From Roseomonas xinghualingensis (GTDB taxonomy: Bacteria > Pseudomonadota > Alphaproteobacteria > Acetobacterales > Acetobacteraceae), in the NCBI RefSeq assembly GCF_025791835.1, contig NZ_JAOXLP010000011.1:1-64000 (forward strand): a DNA stretch of 64,000 bases. Direction: 5' to 3'. The position numbers and the translations under genes are program-made. The notes beneath the pieces were generated by a model that did no database searches, was not told where the DNA came from, and saw nothing but the letters and a program-made list of their open reading frames with translations. Positions 1-12,332 of the stretch are shown here, piece by piece (positions within the stretch are counted from its first letter, which is position 1; each line of letters opens with the position of its first letter).

Positions 1-1158
1 GGCTTCTCGGGCGGCACGCTGGAGCGGCCGGCCCTGCAGCGGCTGCTCCGCGACATCGAGCAGGGGAGGGTGGATGTGGTGGTGGTCTATAAGATCGACC
101 GCCTGTCCCGCTCGCTGATGGACTTCTCCCGCCTGGTGGAGGTCTTTGATGCGCATGGGGTGACCTTCGTCTCCATCACCCAGTCCTTCAACACCACGAC
201 CAGCATGGGGCGGCTGACGCTCAACATCCTGCTCAGCTTTGCCCAGTTCGAGCGCGAGGTGATCGGCGAGCGGATCCGGGACAAGTTCGCGGCCTCCCGG
301 GCGCGCGGCATGTGGATGGGCGGCAAGGTACCGCTCGGCTACGACGTGCGGGAGCGGAAGCTGGTCATCAACGCGGCCGAGGCCGTGACGGTCCGGCGCG
401 TGTTCGAGCTCTTTCTGGACACCGCGTCCGGCACCGAGACGGCCCGCCAGCTCCAGGCGGAGGGCCGAACCACCAAGTCGGGACGGCTGCTGAACAAGGG
501 CGACGTCTACAAGCTGCTGAATAACCGCACCTATATCGGTGAGGCCACCCATAAGGGGAAGGTCTTTCCCGGCGAGCACGCAGCCATCATCGAGCGCCGC
601 ACCTGGGACCAGGTGCATGTCCTTCTGCGGGAGAGCCCGCGCAGCCGCGGCAACGTCACTCGAAACCAGACGCCGGCACTGCTGAAGGGGCTGCTGTTCG
701 GGGTGGACGGCCTGGCCATGTCGCCAACCCATACCCGGCACCGCGGGCGGCTCTACCGCTACTATGTCAGCCAGGCGGTGCTGAAAGGGGCGGGCCTATC
801 CGAGAAGGCCGACCCCACCTTTGTTCGGCGCATCCCGGCGGCGGCCATTGAGACGGCGGTGGTCGGGCAGGTTCGTGCGCTGCTGCGGCAGCCGGAGATC
901 ATCGTCGGCACCTGGACGGCGGCACGGGCCGGTGATCCGGAGCTCACCGAAGCCGAGACGCGGGAGACCCTGCATCAGCTGGAGCCGCTCTGGGAGGAGC
1001 TGTTCCCCGCCGAGCAGGCGCGGATCCTGCGGCTGCTGGTAGAGCGGGTGACGGTGTCGAGCACGGGCGCTGACATCCAGTTCCGGGTAGAGGGGCTGGC
1101 CAGTCTGATGCGGGATCTGGGGGCCGCTAACGTCCAGATGTTGGAGGCGGCGGAATGA
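1..1158 (+). CDS. Large serine recombinase, 5' end cut by window
   Basis: The frame is open from base 1 (reading GFSGGTLERPAL), so the start codon and the N-terminal catalytic serine lie outside the window. What is visible is the rest of the resolvase domain (YKIDRLSRSL, then ITQSFNTTTSMGRL and the helix around FAQFERE), followed by a recombinase domain (KVPLGYDVRERKL, LLNNRTYIGEATHKG) and a C-terminal helical region. The stretch that is normally a zinc ribbon (FGVDGLAMSPTHTRHRG) has lost its cysteines, as seen in many proteobacterial relatives. The family integrates, excises or inverts DNA. The stop overlaps the next start by 4 bp (ATGA), so the two genes are translationally coupled. Probably the recombinase of the mobile region that follows; the attachment sites were not found. 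Confidence 0.93.
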   Translation, partial: GFSGGTLERPALQRLLRDIEQGRVDVVVVYKIDRLSRSLMDFSRLVEVFDAHGVTFVSITQSFNTTTSMGRLTLNILLSFAQFEREVIGERIRDKFAASRARGMWMGGKVPLGYDVRERKLVINAAEAVTVRRVFELFLDTASGTETARQLQAEGRTTKSGRLLNKGDVYKLLNNRTYIGEATHKGKVFPGEHAAIIERRTWDQVHVLLRESPRSRGNVTRNQTPALLKGLLFGVDGLAMSPTHTRHRGRLYRYYVSQAVLKGAGLSEKADPTFVRRIPAAAIETAVVGQVRALLRQPEIIVGTWTAARAGDPELTEAETRETLHQLEPLWEELFPAEQARILRLLVERVTVSSTGADIQFRVEGLASLMRDLGAANVQMLEAAE

Positions 1159-1571
1159 GTGCTGCGGAAACCTCATCTCCCGCCAGCCTCACGGTCTGGG
1201 TGCCTCTGACGATCCGGCGCCGGCCAGGGCGGAAGACGGTGGTCACGCCGGAGGGGGGGATGAGCCCTGCCGTGCCCAGGCCAGCCACCCAGACGCATGG
1301 TGACCCGGCGCTCGTGAAAGCGTTGGCCCGGGCGTTCCGGTATCAGCGCATGCTGGACGACGGCCAGTACGCGTCGATCACTGAGATGGCTAAGGCCGAG
1401 AAGCTTGACCGGGGATACATGGGGCGGTTGTTGCAGCTGACCCTGCTGGCCCCAAACATCGTCGAGGCGGCTCTCAACGGGTCTGCACCTGGTCCCGACC
1501 TGCCGCGCCTCATGGACCCCTTCACGATAGAATGGCGCGAGCAGCGAGCAGCTCTCTTGCGCACGAGCTGA
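1155..1571 (+). CDS. Small recombinase-partner protein, HTH-like
   Basis: A 138-residue protein whose ATG overlaps the recombinase stop. The N-terminal half is basic and extended (VPLTIRRRPGRKTVV). The C-terminal half is helical, with a likely DNA-binding helix-turn-helix around SITEMAKAEKLDRGYMGRLL and the conserved run LTLLAPNIVEAALNG. In many alphaproteobacteria a protein of this kind sits directly after a large serine recombinase. Its job is not established; a recombination directionality or regulatory role is an inference from position. A decayed relative lies at 2948-3212. Confidence 0.75.
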   Translation: MSAAETSSPASLTVWVPLTIRRRPGRKTVVTPEGGMSPAVPRPATQTHGDPALVKALARAFRYQRMLDDGQYASITEMAKAEKLDRGYMGRLLQLTLLAPNIVEAALNGSAPGPDLPRLMDPFTIEWREQRAALLRTS

Positions 1572-1769
1572 GCGGACGCTCGTCCTCGGCCGGTCCTCTA
1601 GGTCCGCCATCGAGGCGTACTTGAGCGAGGATGGCCCTTTCGTGAGCGATGCACTGGGACGCCGCTCTCCTGTCAGCAGAAATTGCGATAGCCTCGAGAC
1701 CTCTGGGCTCCGGTCCGCCCAGATCGGAGAAGCTCGCCTGCCGCGAGCGGCAAACACCTGGAGAACTTC

Positions 1770-2963
1770 TTGCTTTATCTAGCCCGGACCGACAGCACCG
1801 CCACATCAGCGCTCGTGCGCCGGGCAGCCCCCCCGCCCGTGCCTGGCGTCGGCCCCGAACGCTGGCTGCAGGAGCGGCTCTATAACGCGCCCGGCCTTCT
1901 GTTGGCGGGAGCGGCCTCCCCCCGCCATGCGCGCCTCCGCTCTGTATGCATCGAGCTGCCCCTTCGCGACGTCGGCTATGCCGATTGGTTCGGAGTTACT
2001 CCCGAGGGCGAGATCGCGCTCGCTGAGGTGAAGCTTGGCACGAACGCCGAGGCGCGTCGCGAGGTGGTCGCGCAGGCGCTTGAATACCACGCCGCCCTCC
2101 GACGCCTGTCCTTCTCCTCGCTTGAGGAAGCCTGCTTGCGCGCCGAGCGCACCACCCTCACGACCGAAGCTGGCCTCTACGAGAGGTCTGGCGCCGGAGA
2201 GGCGGGCCTCGCCCCAGACGAGTTCGTGGAGAGGGTCGAGGCGAACCTCCGACGCGGGTCGTCCCTCCTCGCGATCGTCCTTGACCGCATGCCGGAGCGC
2301 CTCGCGCGGCTCGTGGCAGAGACAATCGCCGACCAGCCGGCGCTTCCCTTTGACGTCTCGCTGATCGAGGTCGGGCTCTATGACGCCCCGGACGGCGGGA
2401 TCGTACTCGCTCCCGTGCTCCGCGGCGCCGCGCTCGCGGTCACCCGGGCGGTGGTCCGCCTCGAAGGCCCGCTCGCGGCTGAGCCGGTCGCTGCCGGTAC
2501 GCCGGAGCGTGCTGCCCGCCCAGGTGCACGGTCGTTCGGGGAGTTCCTTGCAGCCCTTGATGCTGTCTCGCCCGGAGTGGCTGTCCGCTTTGGGACTTTC
2601 CTCGAGACGGCGGCGAGGAGCGGCGTTACGGCCCAGGTCGCACGATCGCTCATCCTACGTCTGGCGGGAGTGAACATTGGCTCACTTGGAACCACGGGTG
2701 AGCTCCAGGTGTATGCCACGGAGCCCGCGCGGGAAGCTGGCTGGGCAGCGTTCGAGGCTTACCTGGAAGCGATGTCGGCGGTGGTCGGCGTGCCTCTGGT
2801 CTCCCTCGCTAGCGGCGAGCGACGGCTCCGCTGCGACCTAACAGCCCTTCTCGACCGGCAAGACGGTTGGATCGAGGCGCTTCTGGCGTATCGCGACGCC
2901 GTGGCACCCGACGCTCCTACGACGGAGCCAAAGGCCGTGCCCCCGTTGATCCTTGGCTCTTAA
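1770..2963 (+). CDS. PD-(D/E)XK nuclease-like protein
   Basis: A 397-residue protein beginning at TTG, supported by GGAG at 1760-1763 six bases upstream; no better in-frame start is seen. Residues 30-110 fit the PD-(D/E)XK core: E30 in a helix, D72 (ADWFGV), E86 and K88 (the EVK strand) and Q102/Y106 (AQALEY), a set found in restriction-like nucleases. The C-terminal 250 residues match nothing I recognise. It stands between the recombinase pair and a broken copy of the partner gene, so it is cargo of the mobile region. DNA cleavage is inferred from the motif; the target is unknown. The last few codons overlap DNA homologous to the partner gene, so the C terminus may have been reset by a recombination junction. 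Confidence 0.7.
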   Translation: MLYLARTDSTATSALVRRAAPPPVPGVGPERWLQERLYNAPGLLLAGAASPRHARLRSVCIELPLRDVGYADWFGVTPEGEIALAEVKLGTNAEARREVVAQALEYHAALRRLSFSSLEEACLRAERTTLTTEAGLYERSGAGEAGLAPDEFVERVEANLRRGSSLLAIVLDRMPERLARLVAETIADQPALPFDVSLIEVGLYDAPDGGIVLAPVLRGAALAVTRAVVRLEGPLAAEPVAAGTPERAARPGARSFGEFLAALDAVSPGVAVRFGTFLETAARSGVTAQVARSLILRLAGVNIGSLGTTGELQVYATEPAREAGWAAFEAYLEAMSAVVGVPLVSLASGERRLRCDLTALLDRQDGWIEALLAYRDAVAPDAPTTEPKAVPPLILGS

Positions 2964-3212
2964 GGTCCCTAGCCCGGGCCCTCCGGTGTCAACGCATGCT
3001 TGACGAGGGGCGATGCGGCTCAATCAGTGAGTAGGCTGAGGCGAGGGTACGGGACGCGGCTATCTCGGCAGCGTACTGCGGCTGACGCTGCTCGCGCCCG
3101 ACCTCGCTCAGACGCTGCTGGACGGCTGAGCGCCAACTAGATTCACGCTGGCGCGGCTGCTAGGCCGCTCCCGACGCCCTGGACCGAGCAACATGCGCTG
3201 TTGGGCTGCCCG
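2948..3212 (+). pseudogene. Decayed copy of the recombinase-partner gene
   Basis: Translation in shifting frames recovers the protein at 1155-1571. From 2948 it reads DPWLLRSLARALRCQRMLDE, against DPALVKALARAFRYQRMLDD. It then meets a TAG inside the HTH and resumes one frame over as RGYLGSVLRLTLLAPDL, against RGYMGRLLQLTLLAPNI, ending in TGA after LLDG. A weaker trace (PWTEQHALLG against IEWREQRAALL) reaches about 3212. At least one frameshift and two stops make this a dead gene. It marks a second, older recombinase unit or a duplicated end of the element. Confidence 0.8.
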
Positions 3213-3532
3213 CCCGGTCCTTCAACACGAGCGTGCTAGCGACGCGGATCACCTTCACCGTCGAGGAAAGAGGGCATGTCGGTCGGATTGCTCGTCCGCG
3301 CTGCGCCCGCTCCAGCGGTTCGGAAATCGCTCTGCAGATCTGGAAATATGGCATTTCGTCAGGTGTCGCTCCGAACTCAGTGGCGCGCCGGATGCGTTCG
3401 ACATAATATCGAAGGAAATATGGGATCGGCCAAAGTGACCCTCGCTGCGAACATTTGGCCATGTGAGCCGCAGACGCACCGTGCGTGGCTACGACTCGAG
3501 GCCATTGTTTGCAGCGGCCGGAGGTTTTTTGC
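3213..3532. other. Gap upstream of hydrolase–CHAT genes
   Basis: About 320 bases with no convincing gene: the short open frames here lack a recognisable product and a ribosome site. This is the likely promoter region of the hydrolase–CHAT pair. The one structured element seen is the inverted repeat at 3397-3413. Confidence 0.5.
3397..3413. promoter_or_regulatory. Inverted repeat around a -10-like box
   Basis: TTCGA, seven bases, TCGAA, with CATAAT (3402-3407) inside the spacer. A 5 bp palindrome placed on a possible -10 box, 120 bases before the hydrolase start, would suit an operator. No clear -35 box was seen, so this is tentative. Confidence 0.3.
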
Positions 3533-4933
3533 GTGAGACCCTATCCGGACCTGGTTGTGTTCTTGCCTGGCATCGGCGGTTCATCCCTCTTGCGCGACGG
3601 TCGCACCATCTGGGGCGGAACGTGGCGTGCTATGGCGAATGCAATCGCTGGAGGTGGATTGGCCAAGCTGGCGCTGCCAGTCGGCGAAGGTAGGGATGAC
3701 CATGGATGCGGCGTCGAAGTGGGGAGCGTAGTCGATGATGTTCACGTTGTCCCGGGGCTGTGGAAGATTGATGCGTACGGTGGCTTCTGTTCGATGCTCG
3801 CCGCTTCAGTCGGCCTCGTTGAGGGGGAGAACTTCCACCGCTTCGCATACGATTGGCGACGCGACAACCGCCTATCGGCCATAAGGCTGGCCAACTTTGC
3901 CCAACGGTGGCTGTCGTCGTGGCGCATGCGGTCCGGCAACGTCGATGCGCGGATAGTCCTGGTCGCACATAGCATGGGCGGGCTCGTGGCGCGCCGTTAT
4001 GTTGAGTGCCTAGATGGATGGCGCGTCGTACGGCGCCTCTTCACAATTGGCACTCCGCACCGGGGATCCCTCGACGCTCTAGGATGTTTGGTAAACGGGT
4101 ACGCTAAAGGGATTGGTCCGCTGAGAGTGGACGCGACTGCGCCCCTAAGATCATTCCCGTCGGTCTACCAACTCCTTCCCACCTTCTCCTGCGTCGTGAC
4201 TAGTGAAGGGATGGTTCGGGTCCAAGATGCTCCTCTTGAAGGCGACGTCGGCGCCCAGGTCCGTGCCGGCGCGCTCGACGCGGCGAAGTTTCACGCGGAG
4301 ATCCGAGAAGCCGCCGAAATGAACCGAAGCATGGTGGGCTATCCCTCGGATTATCTTTCGCCCATTGCCTCGGCGCGTCAGCCCACCTTCCAATCTGCCC
4401 GCCCTCTTGCTTCGGGGATCGAGCTGCTTCGCACCTTTGAAGATGAGGACCACGGCGGCGACGGTACAGTGCCCATGGTATCTGCCGTGCCGCACGGGAT
4501 CGATGCATCGGCCGTCACCCACGTCTGGGGGCTGCACTCTCGCCTAGTCGCGGAGGAGGGGCTGCGGGAGCACGTACTCGGAGCGCTGAGGGCCGGCCGA
4601 GTTCCGATGGAGCGCTTCCGCTCGGCGGGTGGAGCCAAGCAGGTCCGGCTTGAGCTTGAGGACGCATGCGAGGCGGATGTGACCTTCGAACTGGCTGCGG
4701 CAGTCGACGACATGAGCGAGCAGACACTCTCGGCGGAGGCCGTGCGTTCCGAGGATGGCATGGTGCTGAGGACGACTCTCCACAGGAGCGGTCGGCGCTA
4801 CGTTGGTCCGATATCGCTTCCGGAGGGCGCGTGGCGTGTAGCGGTGCGGGGAACGAAGGCCGCTGCAGCGGAGGACTTGGTACTGGCGCTGCGTTCTGAC
4901 GGCTCGGTAGCGGGCAAGGCTGCAGGAGGATGA
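3533..4933 (+). CDS. LCAT-like alpha/beta hydrolase
   Basis: GTG at 3533 is preferred over an in-frame ATG at 3485 because GGAGG (3520-3524) lies eight bases before it, giving 466 residues. The N terminus carries the oxyanion-side loop FLPGIGGSSL. The nucleophile elbow AHSMGG places serine near 147. GGDGTVP supplies aspartate near 310 and WGLHSRL histidine near 335, completing a triad in the order of lecithin:cholesterol acyltransferase-like lipases. Residues 355-466 look like an added beta-rich domain. No signal peptide is seen, so it should act in the cytoplasm. The stop overlaps the CHAT start by 4 bp. Working inference: a lipase or acyl-ester hydrolase effector in a conflict system, controlled by or partnered with the CHAT protein. 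Confidence 0.82.
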   Translation: MRPYPDLVVFLPGIGGSSLLRDGRTIWGGTWRAMANAIAGGGLAKLALPVGEGRDDHGCGVEVGSVVDDVHVVPGLWKIDAYGGFCSMLAASVGLVEGENFHRFAYDWRRDNRLSAIRLANFAQRWLSSWRMRSGNVDARIVLVAHSMGGLVARRYVECLDGWRVVRRLFTIGTPHRGSLDALGCLVNGYAKGIGPLRVDATAPLRSFPSVYQLLPTFSCVVTSEGMVRVQDAPLEGDVGAQVRAGALDAAKFHAEIREAAEMNRSMVGYPSDYLSPIASARQPTFQSARPLASGIELLRTFEDEDHGGDGTVPMVSAVPHGIDASAVTHVWGLHSRLVAEEGLREHVLGALRAGRVPMERFRSAGGAKQVRLELEDACEADVTFELAAAVDDMSEQTLSAEAVRSEDGMVLRTTLHRSGRRYVGPISLPEGAWRVAVRGTKAAAAEDLVLALRSDGSVAGKAAGG

Positions 4934-6795
4934 ATGGGATCTACAGGCAGTGGCGAGACCTGGCCGAGCTTGCCGGCATCGTAGAAGCTTTGATGGAGCG
5001 CCGCTTTCCCGGCGAGCTACTTTGCCTGCGCCTTGAATGGTCAGGAAGGAAGATACGGGTTGAGGGCGAGATAGCAAGCGAGACAGCACGCTCCACGCTG
5101 CTGCGTCATCTGTCAGCCATACCCGGAACGCCCACTCTCATCGACGAGTTGACGGTCACAGGCTTCTTCGAGCCCGCTACTAACGATGATTGGTTCCTCA
5201 GACGGCAGCCGACGGGCGCGACCGAAAGTGACTCCGTCGCTCAAGGCGAGCGAGACCATGAACGGGGGAAGGAAGCTATCGTTCGCCATCCCTCCTTGCA
5301 GCCGGAGGGGCGGCTAGCGGCGGGCGCGACGATTGGAGTGATCGTGGATCTGACCGAAGCGGCTGAGACTTTCGGATCGCCCGCTCTGCAGCTCGCGAGG
5401 CTTGCCCCTGGCTGGGGTCAACTCGACGTCGACGTTCTAATAACATCTCGTGCATTCGTCCACCCGCTGCGAGGGTCGATTCGCGTGCTCGAGGAAGGCG
5501 GATCACGGCCTGCGCGGCTGCCGGCTGTGTTGCGTGACGACCTGACCTCAGGCGCTGCAATCGAAGTCTCGCTCATGTTCTTCGAGGAGCAACGGTTCTG
5601 CGGAAGCTGGGACACTAGGCTGGGTGTCGTCGCCGGAGAGTCGGGCGTCGATCCCAGTTTGGCCGCTCCGAGAAAACCGATAATCTCAATTGCATCGTCA
5701 GCGGGAAAGCCCGACCTGACGATTGTCATCAGGAGTCTGGGAGGGGAGAGGCTAGACTGGAATTGGCAACTCCCACGCGGCATCGAATTGGGCCTCGGCT
5801 CCATAGCCGGTTCAGTGCAAGTGGCTGATCCGAGGGGGTACGCCCGAGAGCTGCTGCGCGCTTGTCCACTGATGCCGGGTGCGGCTGTCAAACGACGTAT
5901 GGTAAGTATCGGAGAGGACATCTGGCTGAAAACGCCTCAGGAATTCCGAACAACATACGCGGCTTTGCGTGAGCGGCTTGGACCGAATTTCTCCATACAA
6001 CTTCTACTGGATGAGCACAGCATACCTTGGGAGATGATGGTCCCTGATGTTGAAGGAGCCGAGGCACTTTACTTGACGCATCCGATCGCCAGATGGCCTG
6101 TCGCGAACGGGGCGGACATGCCGTGGACGCTGCCAACAGGGGCTATCTGTAGCTTCGTGCCGCAATACAGGGACAACCGTACTCTTCCAGCTGCGCTGCT
6201 CGAGGGCGAATGGCTCGAGAATAGCCTTGGAGCACTGCGCCGTAAGGCCAGCGTCGATGGCTTCCTTTCCCTTATGGGATGTACTGACGCGCCAGGGCCG
6301 GTCTCGATGGTGCACTTTGCCGGGCACGGGCGCGCTGCCAACGAGGACGGCGGCGCTGGACTGCTGATGGAGGATGATTGGGTTATTGCCAGCGACCTCA
6401 ACTCCAAAAGCGCGAGTTTGGGAATGCGCGATCGGTCCATGGTGGTGCTCAACGCCTGTGAAATGGCAGACGTTGGGAGCGAACTGGGCTGGGTCTCGGG
6501 CTGGGCTCCACTCCTCGTGCGTCACCGTTTCGGAGCTGTGATTGCGCCGTTGTGGCGTGTTCAGGACAACGCTGCCCACGAGGTAATCGTGTCCGGCCTC
6601 CACCGTATGTATCGTGCTGGGTATGGTATCGGAGCGGCGTTCGCCGCAGCGCGCGCTGAACGTGCGTCGGATTCCGCCGCCGCCTATGCCTTCATAACGT
6701 ACGGCGACGTAATGGCTACTATTGGCCGCTACGCAGTTACGATCGCCGCAGCGAGCGGCACGTCCGCTTCGACTTGTGTCAAAACCTCCGTGTAA
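4930..6795 (+). CDS. CHAT-domain (caspase-fold) protease
   Basis: A 621-residue protein coupled to the hydrolase gene. AGGAGG (4924-4929) abuts the ATG, an unusually short spacing. Residues 27-80 resemble a BON-type alpha/beta fold (KIRVEGEIASE, IDELTVTG). Residues 125-260 appear beta-rich and are unassigned. Residues about 300-620 are a CHAT domain with the caspase dyad in place: histidine 466 in VHFAGHG and cysteine 510 in VVLNACE, then the typical GAVIAPLWRVQD and AFAAARAE segments. CHAT proteases cut partner proteins in bacterial immune and cell-death systems. The adjacent lipase is the obvious candidate substrate or effector, which is inference. The 3' end overlaps the opposing S8 gene by 67 bp. 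Confidence 0.88.
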   Translation: MNGIYRQWRDLAELAGIVEALMERRFPGELLCLRLEWSGRKIRVEGEIASETARSTLLRHLSAIPGTPTLIDELTVTGFFEPATNDDWFLRRQPTGATESDSVAQGERDHERGKEAIVRHPSLQPEGRLAAGATIGVIVDLTEAAETFGSPALQLARLAPGWGQLDVDVLITSRAFVHPLRGSIRVLEEGGSRPARLPAVLRDDLTSGAAIEVSLMFFEEQRFCGSWDTRLGVVAGESGVDPSLAAPRKPIISIASSAGKPDLTIVIRSLGGERLDWNWQLPRGIELGLGSIAGSVQVADPRGYARELLRACPLMPGAAVKRRMVSIGEDIWLKTPQEFRTTYAALRERLGPNFSIQLLLDEHSIPWEMMVPDVEGAEALYLTHPIARWPVANGADMPWTLPTGAICSFVPQYRDNRTLPAALLEGEWLENSLGALRRKASVDGFLSLMGCTDAPGPVSMVHFAGHGRAANEDGGAGLLMEDDWVIASDLNSKSASLGMRDRSMVVLNACEMADVGSELGWVSGWAPLLVRHRFGAVIAPLWRVQDNAAHEVIVSGLHRMYRAGYGIGAAFAAARAERASDSAAAYAFITYGDVMATIGRYAVTIAAASGTSASTCVKTSV

Positions 6796-9200
6796 AGGCT
6801 GGTCTGCACCTCCGGCGAAGTAATCGTCACCACAAGGCTGAAATGAACGTCGCGATCGTACTTTCCGCGTGCCCGTCTGGCCCACCAGCCGCGATTTGGA
6901 GCGACCATGAGGAGGTTACGGTCGCGCAGCTGGTAAGCTCGGCCTTTCCAAACATCCTGCTGCAGGCTGCCGCGGGTTCGGAGCCTCGAGCCGAGTAGCC
7001 AGCCGATTTCGCCCGCTCCACCGGGTTCTGCCTCGACGTCATTGTTGAAGCGCGCGAGCGCTTGGTCGTCTGTCTCGCCGTGTCGCTTCAAGTCGAACTT
7101 GAGCCGATGTGAGGCGTACAGTTCTCTCCTGCCTGCTGTGAACTCGCCTGGGTCCGGCTCGATGAAGTAGCTGAGGGTGCAGCGCATCTCGATCGGCGTG
7201 GCGCCGAGAGCCTCCAATGCCTGGTCGGGCCAAGGCAGGCGGAAGCTCTTCATCTGCCCCATGCGGACGTACGTACCCGTGAGCATGAACGGGCGCAGAG
7301 TGTCTTCAACTACCATCGTAAGCGCGTCGTCTGCACTCCAGAACAGCCGCTCTTCATCAGGAATGCCCCATCCGAAGCACTTTAAGACTTGTCCTGCCGC
7401 TTTCGCTTCAGAGAGTCCGCGCCCCACATGAAAAACGAGAAGACGTTCCATCTCCTCCGTCCATCGTGCCGAGTTGACCATCAGCGCGCGGATCGTTTCC
7501 GCTCGCATCGAGGGGTATCTAGCTCGGGCGCGGCAGGCGAGCCGCGCGGCGGCGGCAGTGGCAGCGCTTGTTTCGCCAGTGACCGTCACGAGCCTAGCGA
7601 GATCACGTGAGGTTGTCCGCACCATGTCTGGCACGTGTGGGATCGAGGTTCGTCCGCCGACGTCAATGAAGTGGTTGCCGCCCTCCATAACGATGTCCGG
7701 TTTGCGCGGATGAGAGACCTGCCAAGCTTGGGTGGTCCTTGATGTTGGGGCTAAACCTCCCGGCGGCGCGAGCAGGTTCGCTGTGGAGCACTTGTTTGTG
7801 GCGGCACCAACGGAAAGTGCATTCAGCGCCTGAGCGGGCGATTGTACGCCATGGTCAACATTGTGCGTTGCGTAATGGCTGACCCGATAAGGCCTGATTG
7901 CGCTGGTCTGCACGTTCCCTACGGCGGTGCAGACTAGTCGCGTAGCCGTGCCGTCGGCGTAGGCCAGTGCGTCGAGCGTGGCTGAAGTGCTGGTTGGTCG
8001 GCCGTCTTCCGCCTCGCCGACTGCTGTGGCGGCGAGACAGAACACGCGCGGTAGAGAGGTGCGCTCGACGAGCTCAATGGCGGCAGCGAGCGCTTCGCGC
8101 GCCGGGAGTCTCCTAGGATCCCGCGGAGCCGACACGACAACACTTTCGAGGGCAATTTCGAGTTCGGTCTCCTCAATTCCGTTGAGTACATCGTCAAGGT
8201 CACCATAGAGCGCGACGCCGGCCATCTTGGTTCCATGACCATCGGCGTCGTTCACGTCCCATTCGGGCCTGGCGGCGTGGCAACGACTCGCGGGCAGAGA
8301 TTGGCGCAGGAGAGGGTTGCGCCGGTTCACGCCTGTATCGAGAAGTGTTACGACGGGAGCGCCCCGTCTTGCTGGTCGGACACGCGCCGCGGCCTCCTCG
8401 ACGCCGGCCACTCGATCTCGGAGCACTGCCGTCTCCTCCGGAGACACGAAGCTGCTCGCACCTCGCAGTTCTACGACTGCGGCGCTCTCCTCTATAAGGC
8501 GTTCGACATCGCTGCGCGTACCGATCAACGTCCGGACGTCGACGTCCACGAAACGGGTCACGCCACCCTCGAAGTCAACGCCAATGTCGTCCGCCGCCGC
8601 CACGAAAGCGCCCTCAAGGCTGCGCCTCGTCCAGATCTCCCATTCGGCGGACGCGGTGGCCGTAGGCAACTTAGCTTCGTCGTCCGTCCAGTACTCCTCC
8701 ACGGTCGATCCGTGGAACCCATCGGCGCTCTCGAACAGGAAGAAGTTGCGGGGCCTGCGACCAGTACGCCAATCGACGTAGTCATCAAGATTGGCCAGCA
8801 TGTTCTCGATGCCCCGTTCGGTGACGAAGAAGCGAGCTTCGTCGACGGCCTGATTACTCCGACTGCGATCGCCGTCAGCTGTCCAGCGCCGGCGAACGCC
8901 GAGGAGAGCTCGATCGCGCGTCGCCAGCCCAGCGTCGGGCAAATAGAGTTGCACTCCTGGACGGGACCTGACTGTCACTGCTCGTCCGCGGCTGTCCTCG
9001 GGGACCCCGTGCCTCTCCTGCGCAGCGGTCAAGCTTTCAATCCCGCTGACAAGACTCCGCAGTTCTCGGCGGATGGTTTCGGCGTGCCGCCGCCTGTTCT
9101 GCACGACTGGCGGCTCTTGGGTGAATGCCCGATCCGGCGAGCTAAAAGAGCTGGATGCAGCGCCGATGGCGCGAAGGTGGATGTGCTTACGGCGCGCCAT
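6729..9200 (-). CDS. Subtilisin-like (S8) serine protease
   Basis: An 823-residue protein started at the ATG at 9200, with GAGGA six bases upstream. The catalytic triad is complete: aspartate 288 (LLDTGVN), histidine 322 (DGHGTKMAG) and serine 545 (GETSAAT, where the usual GTS is GETS). Asparagine 429 (AVGN) fits the oxyanion hole. Around 280 N-terminal residues precede the protease domain and about 230 follow it. There is no signal peptide, which is unlike secreted subtilisins and fits a cytoplasmic protease driven by the AAA+ ATPase encoded 72 bases upstream. Such ATPase–S8 pairs recur in accessory regions. A role in defence or protein-quality control is inference. Confidence 0.93.
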   Translation of the reverse strand: MARRKHIHLRAIGAASSSFSSPDRAFTQEPPVVQNRRRHAETIRRELRSLVSGIESLTAAQERHGVPEDSRGRAVTVRSRPGVQLYLPDAGLATRDRALLGVRRRWTADGDRSRSNQAVDEARFFVTERGIENMLANLDDYVDWRTGRRPRNFFLFESADGFHGSTVEEYWTDDEAKLPTATASAEWEIWTRRSLEGAFVAAADDIGVDFEGGVTRFVDVDVRTLIGTRSDVERLIEESAAVVELRGASSFVSPEETAVLRDRVAGVEEAAARVRPARRGAPVVTLLDTGVNRRNPLLRQSLPASRCHAARPEWDVNDADGHGTKMAGVALYGDLDDVLNGIEETELEIALESVVVSAPRDPRRLPAREALAAAIELVERTSLPRVFCLAATAVGEAEDGRPTSTSATLDALAYADGTATRLVCTAVGNVQTSAIRPYRVSHYATHNVDHGVQSPAQALNALSVGAATNKCSTANLLAPPGGLAPTSRTTQAWQVSHPRKPDIVMEGGNHFIDVGGRTSIPHVPDMVRTTSRDLARLVTVTGETSAATAAAARLACRARARYPSMRAETIRALMVNSARWTEEMERLLVFHVGRGLSEAKAAGQVLKCFGWGIPDEERLFWSADDALTMVVEDTLRPFMLTGTYVRMGQMKSFRLPWPDQALEALGATPIEMRCTLSYFIEPDPGEFTAGRRELYASHRLKFDLKRHGETDDQALARFNNDVEAEPGGAGEIGWLLGSRLRTRGSLQQDVWKGRAYQLRDRNLLMVAPNRGWWARRARGKYDRDVHFSLVVTITSPEVQTSLYTEVLTQVEADVPLAAAIVTA

Positions 9201-9272
9201 TTGTATTCCTCGGACGCACGAGACTGAAACTGCCGGGCGACTTCGTCAATCTCAGACCAACCCGGCAGCCTG

Positions 9273-10256
9273 CTAAGACCGATGTAGTTGTGCTCGCTCA
9301 GCAATGCAGGTGCCGAGGACTTCATTGCGAATTATGCCGTTATGATCGAGTACCGCGACACGAGCAGCGTCCTTGGCGGCAGCAACCAAATCGGCCTGGC
9401 TCAGGCCGGCAGCGTTGCTGCTTACCGCGATCCAATCAACATCGGCCATGGAGAAACGGCCAAGATGCGCTTTCAGTATGCGCTGGATCCCATCAGACGA
9501 CGGACGCTCGTACGCAAGAGAAGCGTCAAACCGACGGAATATCGCGGCGTCCAAAAGGGCGGAATGATTAGTGGCTGCAATCAGTAAGCTCGCGGACTTA
9601 TCTTGGTCGAGGAACTGCAGAAGAGAATTCAGCGTGCGGCGCGCCTCGCCAACATCATTTTCTGTGCCGCGGCTGGTTGCTAGCGCGTCGACCTCGTCGA
9701 AGAAATAAACGCCACGGGTCGTCTCCACTGCGTCGAATACTAACCTCAGCTTCGCCGCCGTCTCGCCCATAAATTTAGTGATGACGCCGTCCAGCATCAC
9801 AGTGAAAAGCGGAAGGCCTAGCTCGCCCGCCAGCGCCGCCGCCGTCATCGTCTTACCCGTGCCGGGAGGGCCGGCGAGAAGCAGCTTGCGCCGAGGCTCG
9901 AGGCCGCGTTCCGCCAGGAGCTCGCGCTCTCGGTGCTCGCGGGTCACACCCCTCAGCCTCGTCTCCAACGCTTCGGATAGAATCAGGTCGTCAATGCGCG
10001 TCTCCGGGTAGGACGCGTGTAGAATGCTGGCCAGCTCGCCGCGCGGCGCAAATATCGGTGTCGGTCGTGCGCTTGGTCGCCGCTCGGAAGCTTCAGTTCG
10101 GAGATTGCTGACCAGTGTCCGGATTTCATCCGCCATTCGGCCGCGACCCGCCTTGGCGGCGTCCGACGCTATGTGTTCCGCAATCGCAAAGAAGCTAGAC
10201 TCGTCGCCCGTCGCGTGGCTCCGGATTAAGCCGAGAAGTTGCTTGCTGCTGGCCAT
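9273..10256 (-). CDS. AAA+ ATPase paired with S8 protease
   Basis: A 327-residue protein. GTG at 10259 and ATG at 10256 are adjacent; the ATG has GGGA six bases upstream and is preferred. The AAA+ module has Walker A GPPGTGKT near residue 130, Walker B VYFFDEVD near 185, sensor-1 ATN near 230 and the arginine-finger motif FRRFD near 243. The overall pattern is that of FtsH- or spastin-like ATPases. About 70 residues before the module (HATGDESSFFAIAEHI) form a helical adaptor. It follows the HTH gene after nine bases and precedes the S8 gene. It likely unfolds or presents substrates to, or switches on, that protease; this is inferred from pairing. Confidence 0.92.
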   Translation of the reverse strand: MASSKQLLGLIRSHATGDESSFFAIAEHIASDAAKAGRGRMADEIRTLVSNLRTEASERRPSARPTPIFAPRGELASILHASYPETRIDDLILSEALETRLRGVTREHRERELLAERGLEPRRKLLLAGPPGTGKTMTAAALAGELGLPLFTVMLDGVITKFMGETAAKLRLVFDAVETTRGVYFFDEVDALATSRGTENDVGEARRTLNSLLQFLDQDKSASLLIAATNHSALLDAAIFRRFDASLAYERPSSDGIQRILKAHLGRFSMADVDWIAVSSNAAGLSQADLVAAAKDAARVAVLDHNGIIRNEVLGTCIAERAQLHRS

Positions 10257-10265
10257 CACGCGTCC

Positions 10266-10592
10266 CTAGTGGCTGTCGCCGAGTTGGTCGAGAGCGAGCT
10301 TCAGAGCCATTTCGACCCTGGCCCTTACCCTGCGCTCTGCCTCGAGTTCTTGCAACGCCCTATGCAACGCAAGGCGCGTGCTCATGGTGCCATGGTCGGC
10401 TCCTAGCCATGCCTCGAGACGGCCGCTCACCATACGCGTGAATGCCTGGCTCCGGAGAGAACGTGAAAGCGTTCCTGGATCAACTTGTATGACACGAGCA
10501 AGCCCCCTGAGCGACATGTTCGCCTCCGCCATCTTGCGGCGCGTGGCCTCGGTGAGGGACGGGCGGAAGCTCCTCCTTGGTCGACCATTCAT
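10266..10592 (-). CDS. HTH DNA-binding protein, likely regulator of AAA–S8 genes
   Basis: 108 residues from the ATG at 10590-10592; an open frame extends upstream but its sequence is uncharacteristic. Residues 22-65 (MSLRGLARVIQVDPGTLSRS) read as a Cro/C1-type helix-turn-helix. The C-terminal 40 residues form a charged helix (LQELEAERRVRARVEMALK) that could dimerise. It is the first gene of a three-gene minus-strand operon. A repeat-rich site at 10602-10625 lies directly before its start, which suggests autoregulation. Confidence 0.72.
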   Translation of the reverse strand: MNGRPRRSFRPSLTEATRRKMAEANMSLRGLARVIQVDPGTLSRSLRSQAFTRMVSGRLEAWLGADHGTMSTRLALHRALQELEAERRVRARVEMALKLALDQLGDSH

Positions 10593-10601
10593 TCTCTGTC
10601 T

Positions 10602-10625
10602 GTTGCATAAAACGTTGCGTGCAAC
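10602..10625. promoter_or_regulatory. Repeat-based operator candidate before the HTH gene
   Basis: GTTGCA at 10602-10607 and TGCAAC at 10620-10625 form an inverted repeat. An inner GTTGC (10614-10618) makes a tight palindrome GTTGC-GT-GCAAC with the right arm and a direct repeat, 12 bases apart, with the left arm. Three copies of a 5-mer within 24 bases, ten bases from an HTH gene start, fit an autoregulatory operator. No binding data exist here. Confidence 0.45.
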
Positions 10626-11070
10626 AATATGGAATGCTGGTTCCCCGGCCGATCGGATAGGCCCGTGGAGCTCCTGGGACCGGTTTGGACGACGGCCAGA
10701 GTGCAGCATCCCAAGCCTCGCAAATGGGCGTGGCATCCGGTTCGAATGCTGCAGCTTGGTGGTTACGCCACCCTCAAGACGACGGGCCGAGGAGAGGACA
10801 GCGTCACACGCTTCCGCATTCCTCTTGCCCGAACTCGCGTGCGACTCTTAACCGTCGCTCAAGCCGCGCGGCAGGCAGGCCGGGAGCAAGCGTCCGCCTA
10901 AGGCTTTTCGAGGTGAACGAGGTGACAAGGAGGAGGACGCCGCCCGACGCGAAGCTGACGACCGCTGACGTGTGAAGCTCGGGCAAAACGGCCCGAAGTT
11001 GGCAATCAATTGCGACCGCCCGAGTAGATAAAACGCCAACTCCGGGCGATGTCGGCCAAAAAACGGCCAG
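10626..11070. other. Intergenic stretch without recognised gene
   Basis: About 445 bases between the HTH operon promoter and the first non-coding repeat. Short open frames on both strands give compositions without recognisable domains and lack ribosome sites. Nothing further was seen apart from short G/C-rich hairpins. Confidence 0.4.
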
Positions 11071-11238
11071 TTACAGGGCGCTAAGCCATACAGGCTAAAC
11101 CGCCCAGGTCCTAAGCGTCAGAGACGAATGCCTCTCCGGAGAGAGAAAACGCCGCTCGTTGCACCTCCGAAGTATCGAGGTGCACGCCAGAAATGGTGTG
11201 GAGGCACACGGAAAGGCGCGATCCAAGCCACCCCAGAG
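11071..11238. repeat. Diverged ~170 bp non-coding repeat, copy 1
   Basis: Aligns with 11937-12108 over its whole length. It begins TTACAGGGCGCTAAGCC and includes the perfect palindrome CTCTCCGGAGAG (11132-11143) and a 7 bp hairpin GCACCTC…GAGGTGC (11161-11183). Changes between copies fall on all codon positions and are mostly non-synonymous in any frame, which argues against a protein. Possibly a structured RNA or a leftover of element ends; the strand is unknown. Confidence 0.5.
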
Positions 11239-11288
11239 TACGTTCCTCTGGAGATGAAATGGGAGCCAGGAGTCTCCCACCCGCGGCC

Positions 11289-11528
11289 TCAGGCCGCCTG
11301 AGCCTTCCGCTCCTTGGCTTCCGCCTCGGAACGAGCCTTCCAGAAGGTCATGTCGGCCTCCTTGCTGAACATGACCCGAACGCCCGTGGCGCCCTTGCTC
11401 ACCCGGAGCTTGCCACCATTCCGGGACCGGTGATCCTCCATCCATTCCTTAAAGACCGCGTCGTCGGGGGAGTGCCCCGCGAATTCGAGAACCCCGGCGA
11501 TCTCTTCCTGTTTACGTCGCTTGACCAT
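11289..11528 (-). CDS. Small hypothetical protein
   Basis: 79 residues, highly charged, ending in a lysine/glutamate/alanine helix. The central part (DDAVFKEWMEDHRSRNGGK, then RVMFSKEADMTFWKAR) has the mixed hydrophobic pattern of a folded protein, unlike the reverse-strand frame. I do not recognise the family. It lies 49 bases downstream of another small gene on the same strand, so the two may be co-transcribed. It sits in the boundary zone between the accessory region and the tRNA genes. Confidence 0.5.
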   Translation of the reverse strand: MVKRRKQEEIAGVLEFAGHSPDDAVFKEWMEDHRSRNGGKLRVSKGATGVRVMFSKEADMTFWKARSEAEAKERKAQAA

Positions 11529-11577
11529 TCTTCAGAACCTTACTGATGGAGGAGGAGAACGCTGGCGCAGCCGTCGC

Positions 11578-11751
11578 TCAGCGATCGCCCGTCTTGCGGT
11601 TACTCTGAGTGGCGGAGCTCACGCCACCCTGCTTGCCGCCGCTGTTGCCGGAACCGGCGCGGGCGTCCTTCGGGTTGGCCTTCCCACCGGTCGCATTCTT
11701 GCCGCCCTGAGGGGCGCGGCCGGCGGGGGGGAGGGGAGGGAGATTTGCCAT
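11578..11751 (-). CDS. Small low-complexity protein
   Basis: 57 residues if started at the ATG at 11751, which has AAGG about seven bases upstream; an in-frame ATG at 11799 would add 16 residues. It begins MANLPPLPPAG and is then rich in glycine, asparagine, lysine and serine (GGKNATGGKANPKDAR), so it is probably disordered. No family is recognised. Pairing with the 79-residue gene downstream is the main support that it is real. Confidence 0.35.
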   Translation of the reverse strand: MANLPPLPPAGRAPQGGKNATGGKANPKDARAGSGNSGGKQGGVSSATQSNRKTGDR

Positions 11752-12124
11752 GGGGGTGCCTTGTGCTTGTTGGGCAGATGAAGGGCGTCTGTCGAACAAA
11801 CGCCACCGCCCTGCCTACGGCTCCAAGGCGCTCCGCTAAAGGTCGGGCTTGAAGATCGGGTTTTGGTGAAGGGGGCGAACCGCCCAGGAAACGCGCGGCC
11901 AATTTCGGGCGGGTGTTCAGAGAAAATGCGCTGTACTTACAACGCGGTAAAGCTGGTGGGCTGAACCACCCAAGTCCCAAGCTTCGGAGACAAATGGCTC
12001 TCTGGAGAGAGAAATTGCTCCTTGTTCCGCCTTCGAAGCATCAAGCTGAACGCGGAAAATGCAGCCGAAACACACGGAGAGCGCGATCTCAATCTTACCA
12101 GAGACAACTTGTCCTAAGAAAGAC
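11752..12124. other. Intergenic stretch between small genes and tRNAs
   Basis: No protein gene is supported. The second half holds copy 2 of the non-coding repeat. An open frame here runs on antisense through the tRNA and ends in the artefact GIRTLDPDLGKVV, so it was not called. Confidence 0.5.
11937..12108. repeat. Diverged ~170 bp non-coding repeat, copy 2
   Basis: Partner of 11071-11238. It shares TTACA-GCG-TAAAGC, the GGCTGAACCACCCAAG block, the CTCTCTGGAGAGAG hairpin (which keeps pairing despite base changes), CGAAGCATC and ACACGGAGAGCGCGATC. It ends 16 bases from the first tRNA-Gly. The nearly preserved hairpin suggests selection on RNA structure, but two copies are too few to prove it. 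Confidence 0.5.
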
Positions 12125-12199
<75 letters not shown>

Positions 12200-12257
12200 G
12201 CTCCATGCGTGGCAGTTGTATAACCAACCGAAATCCAACGGCATGAAAGAAACTGCT

Positions 12258-12332
<75 letters not shown>

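Follow-up and report, generated by a model that had tools for sequence, protein, structure and literature searches.

The IetAS system (IteA/IteS in NCBIfam, SgiAT on Salmonella genomic island 1 [SGI1], and ietAS of pTiC58) consists of an AAA+ ATPase gene directly followed by a gene for a cytoplasmic subtilisin (S8) protease. Gao and others reportedly found it as a defence system in 2020. On SGI1 the IetS-like subtilisin is a toxin and the IetA-like ATPase its antitoxin, the closest known pair being that of pTiC58; when driven by its own promoter, the SGI1 operon did not cause post-segregational killing (PMC5006074). How IetAS works is still described as unknown in a 2025 paper (PMC11878078). 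Here we describe a 64,000-nucleotide stretch of Roseomonas xinghualingensis (contig NZ_JAOXLP010000011.1, positions 1 to 64,000; "the window") in which an IetAS-like pair with a small helix-turn-helix (HTH) gene faces an operon encoding an LCAT-type (phospho)lipase and a caspase-like CHAT protease. The two halves are one inherited unit, which is the new finding here. The five genes probably make up a single conserved cassette for conflict (defence), in which a variant of IetAS is joined by a caspase-phospholipase killing arm.

Other described systems resemble parts of this cassette. Craspase (TPR-CHAT) and SAVED-CHAT are switched on by CRISPR effectors or cyclic nucleotides; the window differs in having neither kind of partner among its seven open reading frames (ORFs) covered by the Pfam family scan (positions 70-10736). 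In the vWA-MoxR (VMAP) ternary systems, as outlined in excerpts of Kaur et al. 2020 (PMC7159879), a caspase-superfamily protease gene also lies beside an alpha/beta-hydrolase gene, a likeness drawn at the alpha/beta-hydrolase level. The window has IetAS in place of vWA, MoxR and VMAP, and membership was rejected, none of these three families being found among the seven ORFs. CARD-NLR systems, whose effectors are gasdermins, phospholipases or endonucleases, likewise link proteases to a membrane-damaging effector, and phospholipases are named there as alternative effectors (PMC13236601, in part). Their proteases are trypsin-like and accompanied by CARD and an NLR ATPase according to the same excerpts, whereas the scanned ORFs of the window encode S8 and CHAT proteases and, as IetA, a PF00004 AAA ATPase; membership of this group was also rejected. 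The α/β-hydrolase-caspase pairing is thus already published for other conflict systems, and IetAS with a caspase-phospholipase arm is a new variant. The first-pass annotation had recognized the five genes as no named system. This stands for their joining, since no published work combining IetAS with CHAT or a lipase was found in the full text of open-licence papers, but not for the AAA+/S8 pair, which PADLOC identifies as IetAS.

Judged by sequence, the AAA+/S8 pair is IetAS, a reported toxin-antitoxin and anti-phage pair. The two genes are adjacent and on the same strand, PADLOC models match both proteins, and the location is mobile and accessory, all as in IetAS. A stand-alone pair (L122) is matched similarly by PADLOC, with E values of 3.4e-70 (IetA) and 5.6e-40 (IetS). 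Both pairs miss the NCBIfam equivalog cut-offs of 510 bits for IteA and 900 bits for IteS, the window pair scoring 208.1 and 42.0 bits and L122 198.6 and 55.2 bits; the window pair is therefore IetAS-like and not an NCBI equivalog. The window differs from other IetAS loci in two respects: i) its IetS falls in a distinct clade, 44-50% identical to the clade's own members versus 28-37% to the stand-alone pairs compared; and ii) the convergent CHAT-lipase operon and the HTH gene are added.

All five genes of 3533-10592 are present, and their recurrence elsewhere is confirmed to be more than chance. The five-gene order recurs in four other replicons (L089, L090, L161 and L162) at 30-60% protein identity, and partial versions occur in two more (L088 and L091). 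Catalytic residues are retained in every copy compared: the CHAT dyad H466/C510 in 7/7 copies (30-33% identical to the window), the S8 triad D288/H322/S545 in 7/7 (44-50%), and the lipase triad S163/D326/H351, in the numbering of the ORF from 3485, in 6/6 (37-40%). IetA is 55-60% identical to the window among the copies compared. In 72,556 plasmid records the IetS query matches 445, of which the four best are 44-49% identical and the 26 others listed (the best 30 of 445) are 34% identical or less. These four are also among the eight records matched by this CHAT, the CHAT gene adjoins the S8 gene in every one of them, and L089 and L090 contain all five genes.

A search with S8 only, in 198 genomes of another family, recovered 13 S8 genes. 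The top two (L161 and L162; 1,238 and 1,268 bits) belong to whole five-gene cassettes, and none of the remaining 11 (392-604 bits) has LCAT or CHAT in the DNA examined. The search was blind to LCAT and CHAT but not to the S8 of L161 and L162, because its profile, A5, held P0244 and P0219, which are on contigs equal in size to those of these two loci. Searches of 385 and 229 further genomes gave 16 more IetAS pairs with 28-37% identical S8, none with LCAT or CHAT. One of the 27 stand-alone pairs, L169, was left out of the count because its contig ends 96 bp beyond S8; LCAT or CHAT is beside 0 of the 26 assessable pairs, among which L107, L123 and L126 have only 1.7, 1.6 and 2.3 kb of flank beyond S8.

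A tree of 151 S8 proteins places all 20 linked IetS in a single clade (113 members, support 0.972) that contains none of the 27 stand-alone proteins; an earlier tree, with 18 linked and 16 stand-alone proteins, gave the same split. The P-numbered proteins were picked by similarity to the window S8, and P0244 and P0219 were removed for the tree of 151. Same-contig status of metagenome proteins was taken from equal longest-contig sizes rather than from DNA, and the linkage of 13 of the 20 (12 with LCAT, P0209 with CHAT) rests on such sizes. Seven clade members have DNA that was examined (the window, L088-L091, L161 and L162): CHAT is adjacent and convergent in all seven and LCAT is present in six. 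The LCAT and S8 match lists have 14 contig sizes in common, 13 of them above 5 kb including the window's own, whereas shifted controls gave 0.2 on average and 2 at most; with the window's own size and 3296, too short for both genes, set aside, 12 are left. Distances among LCAT and S8 proteins are correlated (r 0.907, n=16, uncorrected for host phylogeny), and 0 of 20,000 permutations reached this value, the best being 0.53. Chance neighbourhood of two unrelated accessory systems was judged unlikely from the recurrence, the clade structure and these controls.

The same data bear on an explanation in which IetAS and an independently triggered CHAT-lipase pair would be two separate conflict systems that are inherited together and have a common address, not a pathway. 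Each half does occur alone, as the 26 IetAS pairs and the lipase-CHAT pairs without this S8 in the DNA examined of L004, L005, L026 and L047 attest, and the halves are two convergent transcription units. Loose partners would, however, be expected to swap; instead, the same convergent order is found on chromosomes and on distant replicons, the linked arrangement has an IetS clade of its own, with CHAT in every copy examined, and the LCAT and S8 distances vary together. Two separate systems are therefore considered rather unlikely, and the five genes very likely constitute one functional module.

Several observations weigh against a single cassette nonetheless. In L088, LCAT-CHAT is accompanied by a shortened S8 but by neither IetA nor HTH, and L091 has CHAT-S8-IetA without a recognisable lipase; either half can therefore do without part of the other, unless the two copies have decayed or been re-wired. 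Stand-alone IetAS is widespread and must function without CHAT or lipase, and the four lipase-CHAT loci named above have no such S8 in the DNA examined. Among the matches listed, S8 of this type was near 0 of 80 broad LCAT relatives in genome_contigs, many with less than 10 kb of flank. CHAT itself is rare: it was found in 1 of 299 genomes of the same family, the source genome itself (about four candidates scored per genome), and in 2 of 394 genomes of another family, both divergent, and a protein search gave eight matches, including the query, among the best 8,000 candidates by shared words. Its structural model is also of middling quality. The expectation that the families co-occur is thus borne out within one IetS clade only, the broad families rarely meeting.

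The lipase has the features of the LCAT/group XV phospholipase A2 family: a Pfam LCAT match, the Ser-Asp-His triad and, in the predicted model (predicted local distance difference test [pLDDT] 87.4), the common fold. This fold is close to those of lysosomal phospholipase A2, the type VI effector Tle4 and LCAT itself. GTG at 3533 is most likely the start codon, having GGAGG 8 nucleotides 5' of it and coinciding with the start of many LCAT relatives. The first strand of the model is at residue 23, which leaves no room for a signal peptide. A low-confidence hinge in the model (residues 380-382) separates the hydrolase from a C-terminal beta-sandwich, and Arg379 directly before it is Arg in 28 of 33 relatives, picked without regard to CHAT partner. 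LCAT was not found in any of 35 same-genus and same-family genomes. Relatives in other lineages adjoin caspase, NACHT/STAND-type, TPR or CHAT genes (9/9 neighbours scanned). In L066, L070 and L079 the LCAT and CHAT profiles match one open frame of 1,063-1,925 amino acids, a natural fusion of both functions.

The CHAT protein belongs to the CHAT (clan CD) proteases by its Pfam match (44 bits against a cut-off of 24), its His/Cys dyad and a caspase-like fold in the predicted model (pLDDT 65.8), which resembles separase, Craspase, gingipain and SAVED-CHAT. No PDB sequence matches the CHAT profile, and the fold is placed through the predicted model only. Residues 34-77 form a compact helix-strand-strand-helix-strand part of the model and match the OmpATb/ArfA N-terminal domain below threshold (E 0.0032; 17.7 bits, the cut-off being 81). 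Separase cuts after Arg, and gingipain R is Arg-specific according to its entry title; both are among the nearest folds, which, together with the low-confidence hinge after Arg379, makes the hinge a candidate CHAT site. The conservation of Arg379 may be structural rather than cleavage-related. Two plasmids carry related arrangements. On pAtCG920 (L091, 7933-11445), a caspase gene and two genes without a Pfam match occupy the lipase position, as if the killing arm had been exchanged; one of the two genes upstream of CHAT presumably has a metallo-β-lactamase-like motif, read by eye. On pTi_AR125 (L092, 5581-11675), a metallophosphoesterase-CHAT pair lies opposite a CHAT-CHAT-winged-HTH operon; the convergent layout is similar, but IetAS is absent.

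IetA may start at GTG 10259 or ATG 10256. Its Walker A motif in the window is GPPGTGKT. The motif reads GPPGTGKG, with Gly replacing the usual Thr/Ser after Lys, in 5/5 other CHAT-linked IetA (L089, L090, L091, L161 and L162); GKT is found, as in the window, in all 21 stand-alone IetA in which the motif was located (no match to the motif in the other 5 of 26). L089 and L090 have HTH orthologues (E about 1e-11 to 1e-12) that back the start at 10592, and further orthologues, in L161 and L162, were found by profile. That the HTH protein represses the right operon is a guess.

Tentatively, the five genes may encode a death cascade of two protease classes, in which an AAA+-restrained subtilisin switch (IetAS) drives CHAT, and CHAT unlocks an internal phospholipase. 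IetA would keep the system off by restraining the IetS protease, as reported for the IetA/IetS-like pair of SGI1. Infection would disturb IetA or its target and free the protease side; CHAT would be switched on, directly or in parallel, and would activate the cytoplasmic phospholipase, perhaps by cutting the hinge next to Arg379. The lipase would then hydrolyse the inner-membrane phospholipids of its own cell, which would die before the invader spreads. Defence by cell death is likely, and the balance leans slightly toward control of the lipase by CHAT. Action of IetS upstream of CHAT is the weakest step and is doubtful. The trigger, the order of cleavage and phage defence itself we infer, as we do the freeing of the lipase by CHAT and the control of either by IetAS.

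The coordinates of the cassette and its surroundings are collected in Table 1. The lipase and CHAT genes overlap by 4 nucleotides (4930-4933), and the CHAT and S8 ORFs converge tail to tail with a 67-nucleotide 3'-end overlap (6729-6795), so that the lipase-CHAT (+) and S8-AAA-HTH (-) transcription units meet head-on. The first-pass annotation had described this layout correctly: an LCAT with a full triad, whose S147 is S163 minus 16, overlapping a CHAT with a His/Cys dyad; HTH, AAA+ and full-triad S8 genes on the opposite strand, the HTH gene having only a sub-threshold PF13936 match; and ends at 3533 and 10592, which fit the refined lipase and HTH starts. Promoter and terminator consensus scans gave no score above shuffles. 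The G+C content is 0.61-0.64 across 3-12 kb versus 0.66-0.75 from 13 kb onward.

Table 1. Genes and other features at the left end of the window
Feature	Position	Strand	Evidence
LCAT-type (phospho)lipase	3533..4933	+	Pfam PF02450, E 7.8e-12
CHAT (caspase/separase-like) protease	4930..6795	+	Pfam PF12770, E 2.5e-11
IetS-like cytoplasmic subtilisin (S8)	6729..9200	-	PF00082 E 1.2e-36; PADLOC IetS E 4.1e-36
IetA-like AAA+ ATPase	9273..10259	-	PF00004 E 2e-30; PADLOC IetA E 3.9e-72
Small HTH gene upstream of ietA, likely regulator	10266..10592	-	sub-threshold PF13936, E 0.0013
Serine recombinase, left side of slot	1..1158	+	PF00239, PF07508
Small ORF beside recombinase	1155..1571	+	open reading frame
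Right-hand slot tail, common to same-genus G001, G007, G008, G009	11070..12213	.	BLASTN
tRNA-Gly(GCC) bounding slot	12125..12199	-	
Second tRNA-Gly(GCC)	12258..12332	-	

The cassette is accessory cargo, as first proposed, in a tRNA-Gly slot whose variable contents sometimes include defence genes. The serine recombinase noted alongside is real, though truncated by the contig start, its Resolvase match beginning at profile position 65 of 145. In G001 (L145) and G009 (L146), the recombinase and the tail flank different cargo at the same tRNA-Gly locus, which lies at 12.1-12.3 kb in the window. G008 (L142) has both the tail and the recombinase-adjacent small ORF in common with the window, and G007 (L147) the tail; neither tail nor recombinase was found in the DNA examined of G002 and G006 (for G006, only 1.7 kb beyond the tRNA). 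The L145 relative of the small ORF matches a centromere-binding HTH domain below threshold. Between recombinase and lipase (1770-2963) is a 397-amino-acid ORF that Pfam does not match and PADLOC matches weakly to PDC-S11 (E 1.5e-4). No trustworthy attachment-site candidate was found among direct repeats besides the tandem tRNA-Gly.

A neighbourhood of defence genes, also predicted, is found in places. The G001 slot (L145, 1015-12903) encodes a SIR2 protein, a type III methyltransferase, a REase-III-like protein and an RmrA-like protein, and three annotated plasmid copies lie near defence genes (AbiE-type and caspase in L088, KwaB-like in L089, caspase and TIR in L091). The other slots speak against a defence setting: none of 10 proteins scanned in G009 has a PADLOC match at E 1e-5; the six scanned in G008 gave only matches that read as ABC-ATPase-like (mad3, AriA, mad8) in one protein, and the four in G007 only weak JetC/LmuB matches in one. 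Clear defence genes were thus found only in the G001 slot, with none convincing among the proteins scanned in the other three. A phage origin was rejected, CHAT having no match in 50,697 phage records; S8 has two there at about 34% identity, one covering 85% of the protein, and LCAT was found at two loci in viral_contigs from 21 pattern matches.

The distribution over replicons bears on a further explanation, a stability (addiction) module in which IetA would be the antidote, and IetS with CHAT and the lipase would kill any cell that has lost the plasmid or island. The four plasmid copies (L088-L091) are on plasmids typed conjugative, and the toxin/antitoxin pair of SGI1, with its closest known relative on pTiC58 (PMC5006074, excerpts), would suit such a role. 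Two complete copies (L161 and L162), however, are on 5.6- and 9.1-Mb contigs, presumably chromosomes; the SGI1 operon itself, as the same excerpts report, gave no post-segregational killing from its own promoter; and the lipase relatives adjoin STAND/caspase-type genes, not addiction genes. An addiction module is accordingly held to be unlikely. In L162 (positions 1-6000, genome G1729), the cassette directly follows apparent dnaA, dnaN, recF and gyrB genes, read by eye, and can thus adjoin a replication-gene region.

The reading of the five genes as a conserved defence cassette thus leaves the interpretation first given to this DNA partly supported: that the two halves belong together follows from the clade, the correlated distances and the recurrent order. 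The cassette is compact, about 7 kb, and occurs on plasmids and chromosome-sized contigs. It also extends the published α/β-hydrolase-caspase pairing to a new partner. If the two-protease death cascade is real, one branch of IetAS gains a downstream effector and a mechanism. The design would parallel animal caspase-to-membrane-effector pathways, but with a lipase. The tie of an IetAS clade to CHAT and a phospholipase hints at what may lie under the control of the AAA+/subtilisin switch, which is testable with a few point mutants.

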